33,168 bases of DNA, taken from Nitrospinota bacterium. Lineage in GTDB: Bacteria; Nitrospinota_A; UBA7883; JACRGQ01. This document shows positions 15,572-24,999 of this stretch, in pieces (the stretch's first letter is position 1; the number at the start of each line of letters is the position of its first letter). The stretch is from positions 1 to 33,168 of the forward strand of contig JACRGQ010000031.1 of assembly GCA_016217735.1 (NCBI GenBank). Direction: 5' to 3'. The notes under the pieces are model-generated. The model made no database searches. It saw only the letters and a list, made by a program, of their open reading frames with translations, and was not told where the DNA came from. A program made the translations under genes and the position numbers.

Positions 15572-16174
15572 TTAGTGGTTTTTCTTCTGGATTTTCAGCG
15601 CGCGATGCACGTCGTCCTGGGTAACGGCGCCCTGCTCCACCAAAATCTCGCCGATCTTCTTGCCGCTGTTTGACTGCTTTTGAAGCTGCACGGCATTTTC
15701 CACTTCCCGCTCCGAAAGCGTGGGGTTTATGAACCGGGTAATGATCTGCCCCAGAAGCAGCGGGCGGCTTTGCGGTTTGGAAGGATCCTTCGGCATGGCC
15801 GGCAATTTGGCGGTACTGTCGTTTTTCGCCGCCGCGCCTTTGGCATCCCCGGCCACCGCGGCCTTCAGCTTGCTGGAGATGCTCCCGACGCCCTTCCCCA
15901 CCTTGTCGGCGGTTCCGGTGAACAGATCATAGGCCAGCTTGAGCAGAAAAGCGCCGACGAGCAGCCCCACGGGAATCAACAAAATAGTGATGATGGTGTG
16001 AACCTGCTCGGTTTTCTTCTCCGCGACCCCTTCAAAAGCCTTTGCGACTTCTTTTGCGACCGCCTGATGTTCTTCTTCCAGCTCGGCGGATAGAAGATTT
16101 CCCGCGATGCCCGAAACCGCGTCAATGGCGGCGGACAATTCGTTGTGAAAACCGGTCAAAATGTCTATCGTCAT
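15572..16174 (-). CDS. Membrane protein with a C-terminal MshEN-like (GspE N-terminal) domain
   Basis: The 200-residue protein has a helical N terminus (1-58, rich in Glu/Ala/Lys), one membrane helix (about 61-85, IITILLIPVGLLVGAFLLKLA), an Ala/Lys/Pro linker, and a tail (about 139-197) made of two similar motifs: LLGQIITRF..LSEREVENAVQLQ and KIGEILVEQGAVTQDDVHRALKIQ. This tandem pattern (LG..L...G......l..al..Q) is that of MshEN domains at the N terminus of type II/IV secretion ATPases, where it can bind c-di-GMP. Here the ATPase is absent. ATG 16174 has AAAGGGAAAA upstream and lies 22 bases after the hemB stop, so it is probably co-transcribed with hemB. Ligand binding is inference. Confidence 0.6.
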   Translation of the reverse strand: MTIDILTGFHNELSAAIDAVSGIAGNLLSAELEEEHQAVAKEVAKAFEGVAEKKTEQVHTIITILLIPVGLLVGAFLLKLAYDLFTGTADKVGKGVGSISSKLKAAVAGDAKGAAAKNDSTAKLPAMPKDPSKPQSRPLLLGQIITRFINPTLSEREVENAVQLQKQSNSGKKIGEILVEQGAVTQDDVHRALKIQKKNH

Positions 16175-16196
16175 TTTTCCCTTTTCCCCGCCGGGG

Positions 16197-17174
16197 TCAG
16201 CCGTTGAGGTCTTTGGCCGCCTGTTTCGCGTAGTAGGTCAAAATCATGTCGGCCCCCGCGCGGTGGATGGAGAGGAGCACCTCCATCATCACCCGGTGGC
16301 CGTCTATCCACCCCTTTTCGGCGGCGGCCATCACCATGCTGTATTCGCCGCTGACGTTGTAGGCGGCCACCGGCATGTCAAAGCGGGTGCGCACGTCGCG
16401 GATGATGTCCAGATACGAAAGCGCCGGTTTCACCATGACGATGTCGGCCCCTTCCTGGATGTCGAGCGCCACTTCGCGCAGCGCTTCGCGGGCGTTGGGC
16501 GGATCCATCTGGTAGGTCGTCCGGTTGCCGAATTTGGGGGCGCTGTCGCACGCCTCGCGGAACGGGCCGTAGAAGCCCGATGCGTATTTCGCCGCGTAGG
16601 CCATGATGGGGATATCGCTGAAACCGCGCGCGTCCAGCGCCTTGCGTATCACCGCCACGCGGCCGTCCATCATGTCGGACGGGGCCACCATATCGGCGCC
16701 GGCCTCGGCGTGCGAAAGGGCCATCAGCGCCAGCATTTCCAGCGTTTCGTCGTTCAGTATTTTTCCGTGCGGCCCCACGATGCCGCAGTGGCCGTGCGTG
16801 GTGTATTCGTCGATGCATACATCGGTGATAACGACCAGTTCCGGGGCGGCGTTCTTGATCTCGCGGATGGCGTTTTGCACCACGCCGTCCGGCTGGCAGC
16901 CGCTCGTCCCTTTTTCGTCCTTGGTCTCCGGAATGCCGAACAGGATCACCGCCGGGATGCCGAGCGATTGAATCTCTTTCGCCTCCGCCGCCAGCTTGTC
17001 CACCGGCCAGCGGTAGTTCCCCGGCATCGAGCCGATCTCTTCCTTTATCCCCTTGCCGAAGGTGACAAACAAAGGATAAATCAGGTTGTCGGGGGAAAGC
17101 CGGAACTCCCGCGTCATCCGCCTCAACCCCTCGGACATGCGGATGCGTCTGCCACGATATTCGGGGAATTTCAT
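16197..17174 (-). CDS. hemB: Porphobilinogen synthase (delta-aminolevulinate dehydratase)
   Basis: HemB condenses two aminolevulinate molecules to porphobilinogen in haem and tetrapyrrole synthesis, a cytosolic octamer. The 325-residue protein has both Schiff-base lysines ([15 protein letters not shown], Lys196; [12 protein letters not shown], Lys249). The metal site reads [14 protein letters not shown]: Cys120 and Cys130 are kept, but the middle ligand is Asp122 instead of Cys, a hybrid of the zinc (Cys-Cys-Cys) and magnesium (Ala-Asp-Asp) types. ATG 17174 has no ribosome site but lies 6 bases after a -10 (TAAAAT), so a leaderless transcript is possible. It is followed by the MshEN-like membrane protein. 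Haem supply suits the cytochromes nearby. Confidence 0.96.
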
Positions 17175-17180
17175 GCGTCG

Positions 17181-17208
17181 ATTTTAACCGGAATCACGAT
17201 TGAAGCAA
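17181..17208 (-). promoter_or_regulatory. Candidate hemB promoter giving a leaderless transcript
   Basis: On the minus strand TTGCTT (17208-17203), 16 bases, TAAAAT (17186-17181), then CGACGC and ATG 17174. The start site expected 7 bases past the -10 is the A of the ATG itself. Confidence 0.45.
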
Positions 17209-17321
17209 ATACAATAATGCCGTGCGCGCCTTAATCTGCCGAATAAAGCTGGAAAACCGCTATTATGATGATTACTATTGGAGCCGGTTCAAAAGCGGGA
17301 TAAAGGGAAACAGGATTTACA

Positions 17322-19511
17322 ATGAAGCGCGATAATCTTTCGGGTGATTTCTGGGGCGGCCTGACGGCCATGTTGATTGCCCTGCCCTCCGCCATCGCCT
17401 TTGGCGTCGCCATTTATTCCCCTTTTGGCGCTTCCTTTTCCGCGCAAGGGGCGATTGCGGGAATTCTTGGCGTGACGGCGCTTGGCCTTTTGGCCCCGGC
17501 GCTGGGCGGAACCAACCGCCTGATCACCGCCCCGTGCGCCCCGGCGGCGGCCGTTCTGACGGCGTTCGTCATCGAATACCTGCATAAAGGAAACGGCATT
17601 GAATCGGCCCTCCTGATGCTGGCCTTGTTGGGTTTGATCGCCGGAATTATTCAGGTCATCTTCGGGGCCGTCGGCCTTGGCACATTGATAAAATACATGC
17701 CGTACCCGGTCGTCAGCGGCTATCTCAGCGGCGTCGGTTTATACATTATCGCCAGCCAGGTGCCAAAATTCCTGGGGGTGCCTAAAAACGTCCATTTCTG
17801 GGAATCGCTCGCCTCGCTGAATTTATGGAATTGGGAGGGGATGGTGGTCGGCATGGTGACGATGGCGGCCATGCTGGGAGCCGCCAAAATCACCAAGGCC
17901 GTTCCGGCCGCCATAATTGCGCTGTTTGCCGGCATGCTTTCATATTTTCTGCTGGGGCTGGCGGACAGATCCTTGTTGACGCTTGCGGACAATCCCCTGG
18001 TTATCGGGCCTCTGGGCGGAGCGGGAGGCGGACTGGCGGAAGCCATAACCGGCCGCTGGCAGTCCTTTGGCGGCCTTCATCTGGCCGATTTCATGGGGCT
18101 GATGGAGCCGGCCATGACGCTGGCCGTGCTGCTTTCGATCGACACCCTTAAAACCTGCGTCGTTTTGGACAGCCTCACCAGTTCCCGGCACGACTCCAAC
18201 CGCGAGCTTGTGGCGCAAGGCGCCGGCAATATCGCATCGGCGGCGGTTGGGGGAATCCCCGGCGCGGGCACGATGGGGGCGACGCTGGTAAACATGTCAA
18301 GCGGCGCGTCGAGCCGCTTCTCGGGCATCATCGAGGGGATTTTGGCGCTCATCGCGTTTCTATTGCTGGGCGGCGTGATAGCCAGGGTGCCGATAGCCGC
18401 CTTGTCCGGCATTCTGATAGTAATCGGCTTTCGGATGATCGACAAACATACACTCGGCCTTTTGAAATCGCGCTCGACCGTCCTCGACTTTGCCGTGATC
18501 GCCGCGGTCGTCATCGTCTCGCTTACGGTAAGCCTGATCGCGGCCTCGGGCACCGGGGTCGTGCTTGCCGTCGCGTTGTTCATCCGCGAGCAGATCGGCG
18601 GCAGGGTCATCCGGAGCAAGACGTATGGCACCGAGATATCCTCCAAGCATATACGCCTGGAGAAGGAGATGGAGATACTGAAACAGCGCGGAAACCAGAT
18701 GGTGATCTTCGAATTGCAGGGGAGCCTCTTTTTCGGGACAACGGATCAGCTCTTTACCGCCATCGAGGAGGAGATAAAAACGCGAACCTACGTCATTTTG
18801 GACATGCGGCGCGTCCAAACGGTGGATATGACGGCCACGCATATGCTCGAACAGGTCAAGACCCGGCTCGCCGAACGCAACGGATTCCTGATTTTCAGCC
18901 AGATCCCCAAAAATATTCCAAGCGGAAAGGACATCCAGGAGTACTTTGACCAAGTGGGGCTGGTAAAATGGAAAAGCACGACAAGGGATTTCAACGAGCT
19001 TGACGCCGCCATTCAATGGGTGGAAGACCGCATCCTCAAGGGGGCCGCCGTGGAACGCGCCGAGGAAGAGCGCCTTAAGCTGCATGAACTGGAGCTTTTC
19101 AGGGGGCGGAAGGAAGAAACCCTGGCCGTCCTTGAGTCGCGGATGGAGAAGCGCTCGTTTAAGGCCGGCGAACGGATTTTTGCCTCCGGCGATCCCGGCG
19201 ACGAGCTTTTCCTGATACGAAGGGGGGAGGTTCGCATACTGCTTCCTTTGGATAAGAACCATACCCACCACATCGCCACATTCGGGCGGGGCACCTTTTT
19301 CGGCGAGATGTCTTTTCTGGACGGGAGCGCCCGGTCGGCGACCGCGCTCGCCTACACCGATTCCGATCTGTATGTGCTTTCGCGGAAAGCTTTTGACGAC
19401 CTCGCGGGGGACCACAAGATGGCCGCGATCAACCTGCTGGACGGCCTTGCGCGGCTGCTGGCAAGCCGGTTGCGCTACGCAAACGCCGAAATGCACGCCC
19501 TGCGGTCATAA
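17322..19511 (+). CDS. SulP-family anion transporter fused to STAS and cyclic-nucleotide-binding domains
   Basis: The 729-residue inner-membrane protein has a SulP core (about 1-430; roughly 10-14 hydrophobic helices starting GDFWGGLTAMLIALPSAIAFGVA), a STAS domain (about 450-570, with MVIFELQGSLFFGTTDQL and VILDMRRVQTVDMTA), a charged linker (ERAEEERLKLHELELFRGRKEE), and a cNMP-binding domain (about 590-715, ERIFASGDPGDELFLIRRGEVRI and GTFFGEMSFLDGSARSATA with the conserved Glu and Arg of the phosphate cassette). SulP proteins move sulfate, bicarbonate or carboxylates; the substrate is not evident. The cNMP module probably gates transport. ATG 17322 has AGGA a few bases upstream. It is transcribed alone, divergent from hemB. 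Confidence 0.92.
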   Translation: MKRDNLSGDFWGGLTAMLIALPSAIAFGVAIYSPFGASFSAQGAIAGILGVTALGLLAPALGGTNRLITAPCAPAAAVLTAFVIEYLHKGNGIESALLMLALLGLIAGIIQVIFGAVGLGTLIKYMPYPVVSGYLSGVGLYIIASQVPKFLGVPKNVHFWESLASLNLWNWEGMVVGMVTMAAMLGAAKITKAVPAAIIALFAGMLSYFLLGLADRSLLTLADNPLVIGPLGGAGGGLAEAITGRWQSFGGLHLADFMGLMEPAMTLAVLLSIDTLKTCVVLDSLTSSRHDSNRELVAQGAGNIASAAVGGIPGAGTMGATLVNMSSGASSRFSGIIEGILALIAFLLLGGVIARVPIAALSGILIVIGFRMIDKHTLGLLKSRSTVLDFAVIAAVVIVSLTVSLIAASGTGVVLAVALFIREQIGGRVIRSKTYGTEISSKHIRLEKEMEILKQRGNQMVIFELQGSLFFGTTDQLFTAIEEEIKTRTYVILDMRRVQTVDMTATHMLEQVKTRLAERNGFLIFSQIPKNIPSGKDIQEYFDQVGLVKWKSTTRDFNELDAAIQWVEDRILKGAAVERAEEERLKLHELELFRGRKEETLAVLESRMEKRSFKAGERIFASGDPGDELFLIRRGEVRILLPLDKNHTHHIATFGRGTFFGEMSFLDGSARSATALAYTDSDLYVLSRKAFDDLAGDHKMAAINLLDGLARLLASRLRYANAEMHALRS

Positions 19512-19616
19512 GAAAGCGCTTTTTCAGTCGCCCGATGGCTCCTATTTTAATGGTCAATCTGACCGGCAGTTTGAGGAGGCGGGTTTGAGAGCGGGGCAAC
19601 CTGTAATGTTTTAGAG

Positions 19617-19627
19617 GTGAGCGTCAC
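19617..19627. promoter_or_regulatory. Candidate operator of the small HTH gene
   Basis: GTGA-GCG-TCAC is an inverted repeat 35 bases upstream of the HTH start codon, with TATGAT (a possible -10) at 19637-19642. Autoregulation is a guess from position. The rest of the 19512-19661 gap shows only the short palindrome AAAGCGCTTT near its start. Confidence 0.25.
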
Positions 19628-19661
19628 TAATTTGGGTATGATGTTGAACATGGGAGGCGCA

Positions 19662-19892
19662 ATGGGTGACGGGATAATAAAAGGAATCGCACTGAGGAGG
19701 GCGAAGAGCAAAGCATTTCTCGCTTTGAAGGGCCGGGGATTCACGTTGACGGACGTCGCGGATTCGCTCGGCTACTCGGTATCCTACATACACCATGTCG
19801 TGGCCGGCCGGATGAGAAACGCTGGCGTCGAACACGCGATAGCTAAAGCCACCGGCAAAAAAAGGGCGGAACTGTTCAAGGCGGAAAGGTGA
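19662..19892 (+). CDS. Small helix-turn-helix DNA-binding protein (Ner/Nlp-like)
   Basis: The 76-residue protein has a basic N terminus (IALRRAKSKAF) and a helix-turn-helix: ALKGRGFTLTDVADSLGYSVSYIHHVVAGR, then VEHAIAKATGKKRAELF. The order (LkkrG.tL.dla...G.S.s.i...l, then e..iA.alg......lf) resembles Mu Ner and related Nlp regulators, so it may be a phage-derived repressor or a domesticated regulator. ATG 19662 is chosen because GGGAGG lies 4 bases before it; upstream in-frame ATG and GTG codons back to 19617 lack a ribosome site. It stands between the SulP gene and the NPC/cytochrome cluster, all on the same strand, and could control that cluster, which is untested. Confidence 0.7.
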   Translation: MGDGIIKGIALRRAKSKAFLALKGRGFTLTDVADSLGYSVSYIHHVVAGRMRNAGVEHAIAKATGKKRAELFKAER

Positions 19893-19910
19893 AAATCAGA
19901 AATAATCCCG

Positions 19911-20008
19911 GCGGGCTGGAACCAGCCCGCGCCGTATTTATCCATAGGGAAGATTTTAACAATGGCGATGATTCTCCCCTTTCCGTCTTACCGGGGCTAA
20001 CGCCCCGG
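19911..20008 (+). terminator. Two perfect hairpins before the NPC/cytochrome cluster
   Basis: GCGGGCTGG-AA-CCAGCCCGC (19911-19930) lies 18 bases after the HTH stop; CCGGGGC-TAAC-GCCCCGG lies at 19991-20008. Neither has a long T-run, so termination is possible but not certain. They separate the HTH gene from the cluster. Confidence 0.45.
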
Positions 20009-20056
20009 CGGACGGCGGGAACTAAAACATAATAAAAATAAAGGATGGAAGTCAGG

Positions 20057-20562
20057 ATGAAAAAAAGCTGTTTCTGTTTCTTGCGGGGCTGTTTTTGGCC
20101 GTGGGGATAAGCGGCGACGCCTTCGCCGGACCGGGTAATCCCTGCGGGAAGAATCCGTGCGCCGCAAAAAATCCCTGTGGCGTGAAAAACCCTTGCGGGG
20201 CGAATCCCTGCGCCGCCAACCCGTGCGCCAAGGGGCAAAACAAGCCGATCCGCAACACCCATATCACCGACTACAAAAAGCTTGTGACCATGGGGGAGCG
20301 CCTCTGGAATGACGAAAAACTCGGCACGAGCGGTCTTTCCTGCATGTCGTGCCACGCCGATCATGAACATTTGAACCTCAACAAGGTAAAAGGATGGCCG
20401 CATTTCGTAAAAATGACCGGCGACATCGTTACGCTGGATCAAATGGTCAATTACTGCATGATAAACCCGATTGCGGGAGATCCGCTTGACCCGAACTCCA
20501 TCGAAATGACCGCCATGACCGCCTATTACCGGCAGTATGCGGCATCCTTCAAAAAGAAATAA
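20057..20562 (+). CDS. Exported monohaem cytochrome c with N-terminal Asn-Pro-Cys repeats (start codon out of frame)
   Basis: The body encodes a signal peptide core (KKLFLFLAGLFLAVGISGDAFA), six NPC repeats (NPCGK, NPCAAK, NPCGVK, NPCGA, NPCAA, NPCAK), then a c-type cytochrome domain: GERLWNDEKLGTSGLSCMSCHADHEH with one CxxCH (20341-20355) and Met residues near the end that could serve as sixth haem ligand. The corrected protein is about 168 residues and periplasmic. The only plausible start, ATG 20057, is followed by A7; one more A would join it to the signal peptide, whereas as written that frame stops at 20108. No in-frame ATG or GTG precedes the signal core, and TTG 20095 falls inside it. 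This may be a sequence error, phase variation or polymerase slippage. It is followed by the second NPC gene and a pentahaem cytochrome. Confidence 0.7.
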
Positions 20563-20589
20563 TGGATGGAAACGGCGCATGGTGCGTCC

Positions 20590-20598
20590 TGATATAAT
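20590..20598 (+). promoter_or_regulatory. Extended -10 promoter of the second NPC gene
   Basis: TGATATAAT is an extended -10 (TG-N-TATAAT) without a recognisable -35. Transcription would start near 20605, giving a leader of about 20 bases that contains the ribosome site AAAGGGA (20609-20615) for ATG 20624. Confidence 0.55.
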
Positions 20599-20623
20599 CG
20601 GTTTTATGAAAGGGAAAATTGAA

Positions 20624-20878
20624 ATGAAACGCATGACGAAACTGTTTGTTGCGGCGGTTCTAGCCTCCGCCATCGGCCTGGCCGGCACGCCCGCGTGGGC
20701 CGAGGGGAAGAACCCCTGCGGTAAGAACCCGTGCGCCGCGAAGAATCCCTGCGCCGCGAAAAACCCGTGCGCGGCGAATCCCTGTTCAATGAAGGGAATG
20801 AAACACGACAAGCAGGGAAAAACGAAAAACCCCTGCGCGAAGAATCCGTGCGCCAAGAACCCTTGCGGCAAAAAATAA
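20624..20878 (+). CDS. Small exported protein made of Asn-Pro-Cys repeats
   Basis: The 84-residue precursor starts at ATG 20624, with AAAGGGA 8 bases upstream. MKRMTKLFVAAVLASAIGLAGTPAWA is a signal peptide with an AWA cleavage site. The mature part, about 58 residues, is almost only NPC units: four or five NPC(G/A)(A)K repeats, a spacer SMKGMKHDKQGKTK, then three more, giving eight cysteines, all in NPC, with many lysines and no acidic cluster. There is no haem motif. The regular thiols suggest metal binding or a disulfide-linked scaffold, by inference. The same unit forms the N terminus of the cytochrome just upstream, so the two genes probably share origin and role. Its last codons overlap the start of the pentahaem cytochrome in another frame. 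Confidence 0.75.
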   Translation: MKRMTKLFVAAVLASAIGLAGTPAWAEGKNPCGKNPCAAKNPCAAKNPCAANPCSMKGMKHDKQGKTKNPCAKNPCAKNPCGKK

Positions 20879-22020
20879 GCTTCTTCGCATTTATCCTTTT
20901 ATCGGGAATTGCGCTCTCCCCCCTGTCTTCCACCGGGGGAGAGCCTTCCCTTTCAGGGCACTGGCATCGTCCCGCGCCCGCCGGAAAGGGTGATTTTTCA
21001 CTTTATCCCCAAAGTTGCGGCTCCTGTCATACCACGCAATACGAGGGGTGGAAGGAATCGCTCCATGCCAAAGCGGTGGGTCCGGGATTGCTGGGCCAAC
21101 TGGATGTTGGAGAATATCCTGAGACCGCGCTTTCATGTTATACCTGCCACGCGCCCCTTCTGGAGCAGCAGGAAGTTCAGGAAAAGGAAAACGAAAAATA
21201 TCATCCAAACCGCCGCTTCGATGCGGCATTGCAAAAATCAGGCGTAAGCTGCGCGGCATGTCACATACGTAACGGCAAAGTGGTTGGACCGCCCCCATCA
21301 GGCGGGCTGAAAACAGCAAAAGCTGATATAGGCAAACACGGCAAATCAGAATCGCGCGATTTTTTCCAAAAATCGGAATTCTGCGCCGCGTGCCACCAAT
21401 TGGATGAAGGTTACAGCCTCAACGGGAAGTTACTTACAAACACCTACCGCGAATGGAAGCAAAGCGCGTGGGCGCAACAGGGGGTGCGGTGCCAGAGCTG
21501 CCATATGCCGGATCGTGCCCATCTTTTCAAAGGCATTCATGATAAAGAAATGACGCTTCGCGCGGTCGACATCTCCATTTCGCGGGAGGGAGGCCCGGCG
21601 AAATTGACCATTTCAAACATTGGCGCGGGACATTATTTCCCGACCTATGTCACGCCGCTTATTGCAATAAAAGCGTTTTCCGTGGATACGTCGGGAAAAA
21701 CCATTGCCGGATCGCAGAGAGAGGATTTTATCGGCCGCAAAGTAAGCATCGATCTTGAAAAAGAGGAGTTTGATACCCGTATCCCTCCCAACGGAACCCA
21801 TCAGTTCGTCTACGTTGGAGCAACGGCTGGAACAGCAACCGTTTTATTTGAAGTATGGGTTTATCCCGATCAATTCTATTACAACCTTTTTAAATCATTG
21901 CTGGAGGGCAACAGCGCCTCCGACCCGGAGCTTATCAAGCAAGCGATGGGAAATGCAAAATCCACCCCCTATCTCTTGTGGAAAGGGGAAGCGGCGGTGA
22001 AAAGCCGGACAAAGCAATAA
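20848..22020 (+). CDS. Exported pentahaem cytochrome c (cytochrome c554-like)
   Basis: A non-ATG start must be used: GTG 20848 (MRQEPLRQK, a possible GAAG upstream) or TTG 20863 (MRQK), both inside the end of the second NPC gene. Either precedes a signal peptide (ISFFAFILLSGIALSPLSS). Five CxxCH haem sites follow: CGSCH, CYTCH, CAACH, CAACH, CQSCH. The context of the first (SCGSCHTTQYEGWKESLHAKA) is typical of the cytochrome c554 family, which passes electrons in the periplasm. The C-terminal 160 residues lack haem sites and look like a beta-rich domain (NIGAGHYFPTYVTPLIAIKAF) seen behind such haem clusters. There are about 390 residues from GTG. It is the last gene of the three-gene redox cluster; directly after its stop begins a decayed region. 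Confidence 0.85.
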   Translation: MRQEPLRQKISFFAFILLSGIALSPLSSTGGEPSLSGHWHRPAPAGKGDFSLYPQSCGSCHTTQYEGWKESLHAKAVGPGLLGQLDVGEYPETALSCYTCHAPLLEQQEVQEKENEKYHPNRRFDAALQKSGVSCAACHIRNGKVVGPPPSGGLKTAKADIGKHGKSESRDFFQKSEFCAACHQLDEGYSLNGKLLTNTYREWKQSAWAQQGVRCQSCHMPDRAHLFKGIHDKEMTLRAVDISISREGGPAKLTISNIGAGHYFPTYVTPLIAIKAFSVDTSGKTIAGSQREDFIGRKVSIDLEKEEFDTRIPPNGTHQFVYVGATAGTATVLFEVWVYPDQFYYNLFKSLLEGNSASDPELIKQAMGNAKSTPYLLWKGEAAVKSRTKQ

Positions 22021-22146
22021 ACCCATGTTACCCGGATGGAAACCGGACAGATGACGTTGAAACCAATGGTCGAGGCGTCCTACCCGCTGGAAGACGGGCT
22101 TGCCGCGTTCGGGCATGCCGCCGCGATGAAAGTGCTGGTCGGCTGA
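22021..22146 (+). pseudogene. 3' remnant of a zinc-type (MDR) alcohol dehydrogenase
   Basis: The frame directly after the cytochrome stop reads METGQMTLKPMVEASYPLED, GLAAFGHAAAMKVLVG and stops at 22144-22146. This matches the C-terminal end of medium-chain dehydrogenases ('..sG.i..kPli...ypLe...eAf..a....KvlL'). Only about 40 of 340 residues remain, with no catalytic or nucleotide-binding part. The TGA overlaps the ATG of an lgt remnant (TGATG), so an old operon junction is kept while both genes are lost. Confidence 0.6.
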
Positions 22147-22262
22147 TGTTTCCGGTAATACTGCAAATCGGCCCGTTGAAACTCTTCACCTACGGCCTGA
22201 TGGCGGCCATCGGTCTGTTAGTAGGAGTAACGCTTGCCGCCCGCCGCGCGGAAAAAGAGTGA
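22146..22262 (+). pseudogene. lgt: 5' remnant of lgt (prolipoprotein diacylglyceryl transferase)
   Basis: The 38 residues MFPVILQIGPLKLFTYGLMA..GVTLAARRAEKE are the typical first helix of Lgt ('mfPvlf.iGpf.iysYGlm...g...g..l..rrakkeg'), after which a stop ends the frame. Full Lgt is about 260-280 residues, so this is not functional; a complete copy must exist elsewhere if lipoproteins such as the S41 protease are matured. The fragment adjoins a dispersed repeat at 22272. Confidence 0.7.
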
Positions 22263-22271
22263 TCAGGGCCA

Positions 22272-22290
22272 GGTCTTGCTTTGTAGCATT
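22272..22290 (-). repeat. Dispersed 19-bp repeat, copy 1
   Basis: The minus strand reads AATGCTACAAAGCAAGACC, identical to plus-strand 29338-29356. The 22263-22508 gap otherwise holds a GGCCTATAGGCC palindrome (22310-22321), the hairpin at 22401 and no gene. Confidence 0.7.
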
Positions 22291-22400
22291 GGGCGGTAGG
22301 CATGGCGGCGGCCTATAGGCCATTTCCGCGGCGGTTTGTGCGCGTCTGGCTCCGCCAGCTCCGCCGCTCCCTGATTGTCTACTCTGTCAACGCGGGAAAG

Positions 22401-22438
22401 TCGGCCCCCCCGCCTTCGCGGGGGCAGGATCGGGCCGA
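22401..22438. repeat. Nested GC hairpin in the decayed island
   Basis: An outer 7-bp stem TCGGCCC/GGGCCGA encloses a 7-bp stem CCCCCGC/GCGGGGG with loop CTTC. It resembles the GC-rich dispersed intergenic repeats of other bacterial genomes. It could also end transcription of the toxin gene on the minus strand. Confidence 0.5.
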
Positions 22439-22508
22439 TGTACTAAAGTCCCCCCTTAAAGGCTGGCGGGGAACGGGGTGGGATTTTAGGCGCGGCATTC
22501 CGGCCTCC

Positions 22509-22811
22509 CTACGATTCCTTCGCCATGTTTTCAATCCAATATCGCGGTTCGCGGTGAAGATGCGCAACCGCGACCACAAAGATTGTGTCGGAATCCATGC
22601 CGTAAATAATCCCATAAGGGAACCGGGAGAACAAACAGCGCCGAAGACCTTCCTCGATTTCCACGCACGAAAAAGGAAACGCCACGGCCCTTCTGATAAC
22701 CTTATCCAGATCGTCGAGAAATTGCGTATCCAATCCGGCCGATTGGGATGCATACCAAGCCACGGCGTCATCAACCTCAAATTGCGCGGGTTTGAGGAAG
22801 CGTACTTTCAT
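22509..22811 (-). CDS. ParE/RelE-superfamily toxin
   Basis: The 100-residue protein shows the ParE-type order: MKVRFLKPAQFEVDDAVAWY, a long two-helix section (GLDTQFLDDLDKVIRRAVAFPF), then RRCLFSRFPYGIIYGMD, IFVVAVAHLHREPRYW. The 'rr.l...FPygi.Y' strand and the terminal 'aHlhR.P.yW' are usual for this group of toxins. ParE members poison gyrase, RelE members cut mRNA; which applies is not clear from sequence. ATG 22811 overlaps the antitoxin stop as ATGA. The pair sits in the decayed island between the cytochrome and gatC, typical of mobile toxin-antitoxin modules. Confidence 0.88.
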   Translation of the reverse strand: MKVRFLKPAQFEVDDAVAWYASQSAGLDTQFLDDLDKVIRRAVAFPFSCVEIEEGLRRCLFSRFPYGIIYGMDSDTIFVVAVAHLHREPRYWIENMAKES

Positions 22812-23029
22812 GCGATGCGATGTTTGTCCATGACTTGACCATAGGGGACCGTTTCCATTTTGCCCTGCTTATGCGCCTGCCAGCGCCTGCGAGCCTCGTC
22901 CGCCCAAATCCGGTCAATTTCCGGGTCTGGCCTGTCGAGCTGCAGAAGGATGGAATCCACCAGTTCAATCTTCTCAATATCCGGCAAAGATTTGATCTTT
23001 ACCGCAAGCTCGTCCCTGATCGTTCCCAT
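22808..23029 (-). CDS. Addiction-module antitoxin (Unstab_antitox type)
   Basis: This is a 73-residue protein, MGTIRDELAVKIKSLPDIEKIELVDSILLQLD, then PEIDRIWADEARRRWQAHKQGKMETVPYGQVM. It follows the pattern of 'putative addiction module component' proteins: a helical N terminus with 'l..Lp..er..lv..ll..ld' and a C-terminal 'W..Ea.rR......G....v....v' that grips the toxin. GGAG lies 8 bases before ATG 23029. It is the first gene of the pair and overlaps the toxin by 4 bases. Its promoter overlaps neither gatC nor the microprotein. Confidence 0.85.
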   Translation of the reverse strand: MGTIRDELAVKIKSLPDIEKIELVDSILLQLDRPDPEIDRIWADEARRRWQAHKQGKMETVPYGQVMDKHRIA

Positions 23030-23051
23030 AAATATTTCTCCTGGCTTCCAT

Positions 23052-23080
23052 AGTACAAGATAGTTTCACGGCTTGTCCAA
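23052..23080 (-). promoter_or_regulatory. Candidate promoter of the second toxin-antitoxin pair
   Basis: On the minus strand TTGGAC (23080-23075), 17 bases, TGTACT (23057-23052), about 22 bases before the antitoxin ATG. TACTAT, two bases further on, is an alternative -10. Confidence 0.4.
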
Positions 23081-23107
23081 CTCAAGCTGGTTTTTGCCGC
23101 GCTCCCC

Positions 23108-23116
23108 TGATATACT
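23108..23116 (+). promoter_or_regulatory. Extended -10 promoter of the microprotein-gatC-gatA operon
   Basis: TGATATACT has the TG-N extension and a good -10, and no clear -35. The expected start near 23123 gives a leader of about 36 bases with GGAGAGAGA (23145-23153) before ATG 23159. Confidence 0.55.
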
Positions 23117-23158
23117 CCTGCAACACCAAAACACTCATTGCGATGGAGAGAGACCGAT

Positions 23159-23230
23159 ATGCCTAGCCCGACAAAGAAAAAGAAACTGAAAAAACGCTGG
23201 CGCTCGAAGAAAGCTTCCCACCGGAAATAA
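23159..23230 (+). CDS. 23-residue highly basic microprotein coupled to gatC
   Basis: ATG 23159 follows GGAGAGAGA at a 10-base spacing and encodes [23 protein letters not shown]: 14 of 23 residues are Lys, Arg or His and none is acidic. Its TAA overlaps the gatC ATG (TAATG), so gatC translation would depend on ribosomes ending here. It could be a nucleic-acid- or ribosome-binding peptide, or a leader peptide whose translation sets gatC output. I recognise no family. It was found by reading the leader; the good ribosome site, the promoter just upstream and the exact stop-start overlap argue that it is translated. Confidence 0.55.
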
Positions 23231-23514
23231 TGCTTACCGCCGAAGAAGTCTTGAAGGTGGCCAAACTGGCCAACCTCAGGATCAGCGAACGGGAGGTGGC
23301 GAAGACGGCCCACGACCTCTCCGCCATCCTCGGCCACATCGAGCAACTGGGCAAACTCAATACGGCCGACGTGCCGCCGACCAGCCACGTGATCGGGGTG
23401 GAGAACGTCTTCCGCGAAGACGCCGTCACCGCGCACTTCGACCACGCCAAGTCGCTGGCAAACGCGCCGGCCCAGGCGAAAAACTACTTTTCCGTCCCCC
23501 GCATCATCGAATAG
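23230..23514 (+). CDS. gatC: Asp-tRNA(Asn)/Glu-tRNA(Gln) amidotransferase subunit C
   Basis: GatC is the small stabilising subunit of GatCAB, which converts misacylated Glu-tRNA(Gln) or Asp-tRNA(Asn) to the amide forms. The 94-residue protein starts [23 protein letters not shown] and shows the usual 'L..il.hieqL..ldt..V.pt.hv' and 'lReD.v' elements and a C-terminal 'yF.VPriIe'. ATG 23230 shares its A with the microprotein's stop. gatA follows after 8 bases; gatB is not in the window. Its presence implies that the cell lacks GlnRS, AsnRS or both. Confidence 0.93.
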
Positions 23515-23522
23515 GCGGGCGC

Positions 23523-24992
<1,470 letters not shown>

Positions 24993-24999
24993 TTTTCAC

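Follow-up and report, generated by a model that had tools for sequence, protein, structure and literature searches.

Bufferins and oxazolins are exported cysteine-containing peptides that are modified by MNIO enzymes. On the haem side, SoxAX loads SoxYZ, and cytochrome c maturation is among the processes served by CcdA and thioredoxin. The clusters of one bufferin subfamily contain an ECF sigma/anti-sigma pair (PMC12452194). SoxA-family enzymes couple thiosulfate to a thiolate, and in TsdA thiosulfate is bound by Arg109, Arg119 and Ser127 (PMC4423706). Here we compare these systems with a locus in which ladders of Asn-Pro-Cys (NPC) repeats are encoded together with cytochromes. In the open-access literature (subscription papers were outside the scope) we found no description of NPC repeats, of DUF6969 or of this operon, and the small NPC proteins tested and the operon have no Pfam or NCBIfam entry.

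The NPC locus in the window

An initial annotation of the window (the whole 33,168-nucleotide stretch of DNA analysed) placed three genes at 20057-22020, and we found them there in the order given: an NPC protein with a monohaem domain (gene 1), an 84-residue NPC protein (gene 2) and a pentahaem cytochrome (gene 3). The repeat counts of six for gene 1 and eight for gene 2 were borne out. The description of gene 1 held as to a single CxxCH, although its class as a generic cytochrome c gave way to a SoxA/TsdA-type domain. Likewise, the pentahaem gene does adjoin the NPC gene but does not follow it cleanly, since the two overlap.

Gene 1 (20057..20562, + strand; PF21342, E=1.8e-12) encodes a signal-like peptide, the NPC ladder and the SoxA/TsdA-type monohaem domain. 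The six NPC of the ladder (20137..20226, + strand) lie 5 or 6 residues apart. The haem-binding motif CMSCH (20341..20355, + strand) is invariant in 47 relatives. Six of the nine cysteines are in NPC repeats, two in the haem motif, and the last is a further invariant cysteine (20455..20457, + strand). The ladder is predicted to be disordered, and AF2 gives mature-chain residues 1-40 a pLDDT of ~50. The ATG at 20057 is one base out of the frame of the repeats and haem domain, and that frame, open from 20026, contains no ATG, GTG or TTG upstream of the signal-like stretch. Thus an assembly error, a frameshift and an unusual start are all candidates for the start of gene 1 as assembled. A run of seven A follows the ATG (20060-20066); with eight A the protein would begin MKKKLFLFLAG... 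and ATG 20057 would be joined to the NPC-cytochrome frame.

The gene 1 domain is the only PF21342 match in the genome and scores over the cut-off. When its predicted fold was compared by Foldseek, SoxAX and TsdA came top (probability 1.00, TMq ~0.5, E 0.004-0.03). This model-based comparison indicates a SoxA/TsdA fold, which rules out a generic cytochrome c or CCP. The invariant cysteine lies 34 residues past the haem histidine in 47/47 sequences and aligns with a cysteine of the N-terminal haem domain of SoxA (1h31), the best match. The haem is therefore probably His/Cys-ligated, with this cysteine as ligand. Counting by offset from it, the position of TsdA Arg119 (-4) is Met in 45 of the 47 sequences and that of Ser127 (+4) is Pro. 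Since the thiosulfate-binding Arg and Ser of TsdA are absent, the domain is probably not a thiosulfate enzyme. Against the NCBIfam SoxA equivalog TIGR04484 gene 1 scored 45.6 bits, below the cut-off of 110.

Gene 2 (20624..20878, + strand) encodes a putatively exported protein with eight NPC and no other domain; eight cysteines but few His or Met occur in its 84 residues, and it had no Pfam or NCBIfam match. In 20,000 shuffles of this protein the mean number of NPC was 0.16 and the maximum 3, so that eight cannot be put down to chance. NPC is spelled with five different codon combinations in one of genes 1 and 2 and with six in the other, and a 74-nt stretch common to both genes differs at seven codons synonymously and at three non-synonymously. 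Because the NPC codons vary and the shared stretch differs synonymously, the repeat is old and under protein-level selection. This synonymous variety also rules out a DNA-level repeat artefact. A match to the CefA "Cys-every-fifth" RiPP model was weak and below the cut-off (E 0.0074).

Gene 3 (20863..22020, + strand; PF13435, PF22113) contains five CxxCH and a conserved C-terminal region. Its nearest solved structure is MccSep (9wt9/9wt8, E ~5e-15), and against the NCBIfam model ExtKL (NF040886) it scored 62 bits, below the cut-off of 250. The likely start is a TTG at 20863, within gene 2's last NPC repeat. Of the 23 class genomes, 11 contain close relatives of gene 3, and in six of these, the window included, an NPC gene abuts. 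The pairing was also found in other lineages (L117, L131, L120, L088, L183, L189, L190 and L191). At eight loci where the frames overlap, the pentahaem candidate start falls within the last NPC repeat, and the stop codon of the NPC gene ends 13 or 16 nt further on. This arrangement suggests that the NPC and pentahaem genes are translationally coupled, though the start geometry follows in part from the repeat itself, because CCN-TGY always contains NTG in the pentahaem frame.

The locus lies on a ~5.9-kb segment (17229..23128) that by blastn is absent at the same site in the congener G003, in which the blocks matching 15582-17228 and 23129-24995 are ~170 bp apart. In a second congener, G001, the gap is filled by a different insert of ~3.6 kb. 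The G+C content is 53% for 20040-22020 and 60-64% in the flanks, and a window-type cytochrome was not found in three congeners. Taken together, these observations suggest that the cluster was probably gained at this site, or else lost from the congeners. A search for plasmid carriage of the cluster gave no match. The segment also holds a SulP-STAS-cNMP transporter gene (17322-19511), a small HTH gene (19617-19892) and, downstream of the NPC cluster, a toxin-antitoxin pair of ParE-type toxin and Unstab_antitox (22509-23029, - strand; PF05016, PF09720). A short ORF at 22142-22262, possibly a gene fragment, resembles by eye the start of prolipoprotein diacylglyceryl transferase and had no Pfam match.

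Recurrence and partners of the NPC ladder

We scanned ~85,000 genomes for the pattern NPC[AG]xKNPC, which was chosen without regard to cytochromes. At least 119 stretches were found, at least 107 of them with an ORF of four or more NPC. Among the 107 listed loci the NPC ORF itself contains CxxCH in 67 and the reversed motif HCxxC in none; for neighbours within 2.5 kb the numbers are 35 and 17. A random spread of NPC repeats relative to cytochromes, named in the initial annotation as one result that would count against it, is thus refuted. In ~32 of the listed loci no haem family is nearby, partly from cut contigs. The link between NPC and haem is strong but not universal.

By small profiles built in this analysis, 43 of the 107 listed loci have the SoxA-type domain, 25 a P460-type domain, 46 DUF6969 and 14 the pentahaem family. 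The ladder is borne by two unrelated monohaem families, the SoxA/TsdA type of the window and cytochrome P460. The P460 partner occurs mostly in alphaproteobacterial loci, and PF16694 was confirmed for two of these 25. Ladders of 25 to 43 NPC are found on P460-type proteins, again mostly alphaproteobacterial (L034, L048, L078, L083, L099, L124 and L127). In four further loci (L019 1411-2688, L133 340-927, L136 1901-2788 and L046 2-766) NPC is fused to DUF3179, to TPR or to a monohaem domain that matches no Pfam entry.

When 60 related genomes were searched at the protein level, the NPC-cytochrome turned up in several of the class's families, with a single occurrence elsewhere. A search anchored on the haem domain gave matches in 31 of 385 genomes; matches near the window type bear NPC repeats, whether they come from the window's class or from another lineage. 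In the tree built for the SoxA-type domain (73 rows) the presence of NPC changes state once and distant NPC-less matches fall elsewhere; support is weak at many of its forks, and NPC was the criterion by which the named rows, but not the numbered genomes, had been selected. The system occurs in Pseudomonadota, Nitrospinota, Rokubacteria and Myxococcota/"Deltaproteobacteria" bins, with the window's class beside them.

Conservation of repeat and cysteine number, also expected at the outset, failed: within the class the haem proteins have 2 to 22 NPC and the small proteins 4 to 9. This variation argues against a rigid scaffold with fixed geometry. Standalone NPC proteins are basic, with a median net charge of +9 (60/61 positive) and a median of 9 Cys.

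DUF6969 (PF22308) lies near NPC ORFs in 46 of the 107 listed loci, whether the haem partner is SoxA-type, P460 or none. It neighbours NPC genes in Pseudomonadota (L028, L035, L062 and ~40 others listed), and in most of the listed Pseudomonadota loci it takes the place of the pentahaem neighbour, which means that the ladder has no one obligatory partner. As an obligatory partner DUF6969 was ruled out, because it is absent from the window's genome and class although both have NPC genes.

The cluster is not a system of three genes only, as it had first appeared, since relatives add sigma, anti-sigma-like, thioredoxin and CcdA genes. The whole set stands in a row in one genome, G011: ECF sigma, anti-sigma-like protein, NPC-cytochrome, NPC protein, pentahaem cytochrome, thioredoxin and CcdA/DsbD_TM. 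G010 has a row of this type without the cytochrome, with thioredoxin and CcdA beside the NPC gene. Partial sets are found in G005 (sigma-zf-NPC-pentahaem) and G017 (sigma-zf-cytochrome-NPC). Some Pseudomonadota, Marinobacter among them, likewise have the sigma/zf pair next to NPC-cytochromes; the small protein of Marinobacter matches zf-HC2, those of G011 and G017 only profiles built here. In four beta-type loci (L062, L064, L066 and L089) NPC-cytochromes have thioredoxin and CcdA as neighbours. On a cyanobacterial contig (L033) an NPC repeat is fused to a Pfam-confirmed thioredoxin domain and a CcdA-like ORF adjoins; a second cyanobacterial NPC repeat (L123) is fused to a thioredoxin-like domain. 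L064 (2261-3857) also has an MNIO (PF05114) and DUF2063 pair upstream of its Gallionella NPC-cytochrome gene, with ~0.5 kb from DUF2063 to that gene, and this is probably a separate bufferin-type cluster.

In the window neither the sigma/anti-sigma nor the thioredoxin/CcdA genes adjoin the NPC cluster. The nearest ECF homologue in the genome has only 28% identity, a CcdA-like gene on contig C63 has no thioredoxin match beside it, and the genome's other DsbD_TM and ECF genes do not correspond closely to those of the operon.

Candidate functions of the NPC ladder

The system is well supported. Computation shows the genes and how they recur, the fold of the haem domain, its invariant cysteine and the genes that adjoin the operon in relatives, and from these we infer a mechanism that includes export, disorder in vivo, thiol cycling, a direction of electron flow and regulation. 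With thioredoxin, CcdA, ECF sigma and anti-sigma as neighbours, homeostasis of thiol redox or of stress is a likelier role than that of a wire. The first description of the cluster as exported, redox-related and based on NPC repeats is supported, its "metal-binding or covalent scaffold" for electron transfer being a supposition.

We tentatively propose, at somewhat less than even chances, that the NPC ladder is an extracytoplasmic, haem-coupled thiol-redox buffer that is Sec-exported, lysine-rich and flexible. The ladder, placed both on the chain of the SoxA-type haem domain and on a separate small protein, would have its thiols oxidised under stress by oxidants, reactive sulfur or nitrogen species, or soft metals. 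Where the genes exist, a CcdA-thioredoxin route would re-reduce these thiols, and electrons would move among the ladder, the monohaem domain and the pentahaem cytochrome. In most relatives the ECF sigma/anti-sigma pair would switch the set on, and the window copy would have lost, or become separated from, the sigma pair and the reductant genes. We prefer this buffer because the neighbours name thiol chemistry and stress control, and because a ladder that is variable, basic and flexible is better suited to buffering than to serving as a fixed wire. Its main weakness is that CcdA and thioredoxin may simply serve haem attachment. A fuller version is more doubtful: a widespread system in which a ladder reduced by thioredoxin/CcdA swaps electrons with the Cys-ligated haem of its own chain and with a multihaem cytochrome, under its own ECF sigma, the P460 and SoxA-type domains having joined independently and DUF6969 being a maturation or regulatory partner in Pseudomonadota.

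Repeated cysteines on a small exported protein would also suit a metallothionein-like chelator of soft metals (Cu(I), Ag, Hg) of the bufferin kind, with the haem proteins as redox partners of the bound metal. The ECF sigma/anti-sigma pair of relatives has its parallel in one bufferin subfamily (PMC12452194), and such a chelator would need its thiols held reduced by thioredoxin/CcdA. However, no copper exporter or metal resistance gene was prominent among the neighbours examined, MNIO (PF05114) was detected in 0/9 class genomes by a search that did detect its positive controls, and His and Met are few in gene 2. Chelation alone would also leave the recruitment of P460 and SoxA-type domains unexplained, and we regard this role as rather unlikely. 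The SoxA-type domain also raises the idea of a sulfur carrier, in which it would load a sulfur species on NPC thiols, much as SoxAX does with SoxYZ, and electrons would leave through the pentahaem protein. The SoxA/TsdA fold with its invariant cysteine, the SoxA-family conjugation of thiosulfate to a thiolate (PMC4423706) and a rhodanese gene after the pentahaem gene in L207 are consistent with it. The replacement of Arg119 and Ser127, the best match being to the N-terminal haem domain of SoxA, and the fusion of ladders to P460 and thioredoxin as well make it improbable.

A disulfide-linked ladder matrix that holds cytochromes together would account for haem proteins that carry a ladder at one end or at both, for the free drift of repeat number and for the recruitment of two unrelated haem domains. 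The dedicated thioredoxin/CcdA genes adjoining in several lineages suggest reduction instead, and cysteine counts in 61 NPC proteins (37 even, 24 odd) have a weak bias at most, so such a covalent scaffold seems quite unlikely. We give least credence to a cytosolic modification of NPC cysteines that would precede export and, in Pseudomonadota, be carried out by DUF6969. This protein has many invariant His and a model of pLDDT 94 with no fold match in the PDB, but its enzymatic activity is only hypothesised; frequent as it is at the listed loci, it occurs in a single one of the 385 window-related genomes, and the window's genome and class have their NPC genes without it.

If exported thiols are coupled to haem as the preferred buffer supposes, this would be a new way of handling thiol or metal stress outside the cytoplasm. 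It would also assign testable functions to DUF6969 and to many cytochromes at present classed as SoxA-like or P460. Cultured carriers (Marinobacter, Stutzerimonas, Denitromonas and Sedimenticola) make the system testable.

Comparison with known systems

The component folds of the system are known; membership fails, on the features tested, for both Sox/Tsd enzymes and MNIO bufferins. With bufferins and oxazolins it has in common small exported proteins with repeated Cys and, in some clusters, ECF sigma/anti-sigma genes (PMC12452194). MNIO bufferin identity is ruled out for the class, since PF05114 is absent from the nine genomes, and the cluster has no EGKCG or DUF2282-type precursor, only an NPC repeat without family match; haem proteins and thioredoxin/CcdA are found instead. 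With SoxA and TsdA (PF21342; SoxAX 1h31, TsdA 4wq7) gene 1 shares the monohaem-domain fold and a Cys at the probable ligand position. In contrast to them it is a single small haem domain with NPC tails, it lacks the TsdA Arg and Ser, and its neighbours are pentahaem and NPC genes. Cytochrome P460 (PF16694) is a haem partner of the ladder elsewhere and is absent from the window; the P460 proteins of NPC loci add long ladders that are not in the Pfam model. Gene 3 shares a pentahaem region and a matching C-terminal stretch with cytochrome c554, ExtKL and MccSep, yet forms its own conserved family beside NPC genes. Finally, the CcdA and thioredoxin of the CcdA/DsbD-thioredoxin thiol-delivery route both have genes within the NPC operon of class relatives, but here they stand beside exported Cys ladders and not only beside general cytochrome maturation genes.
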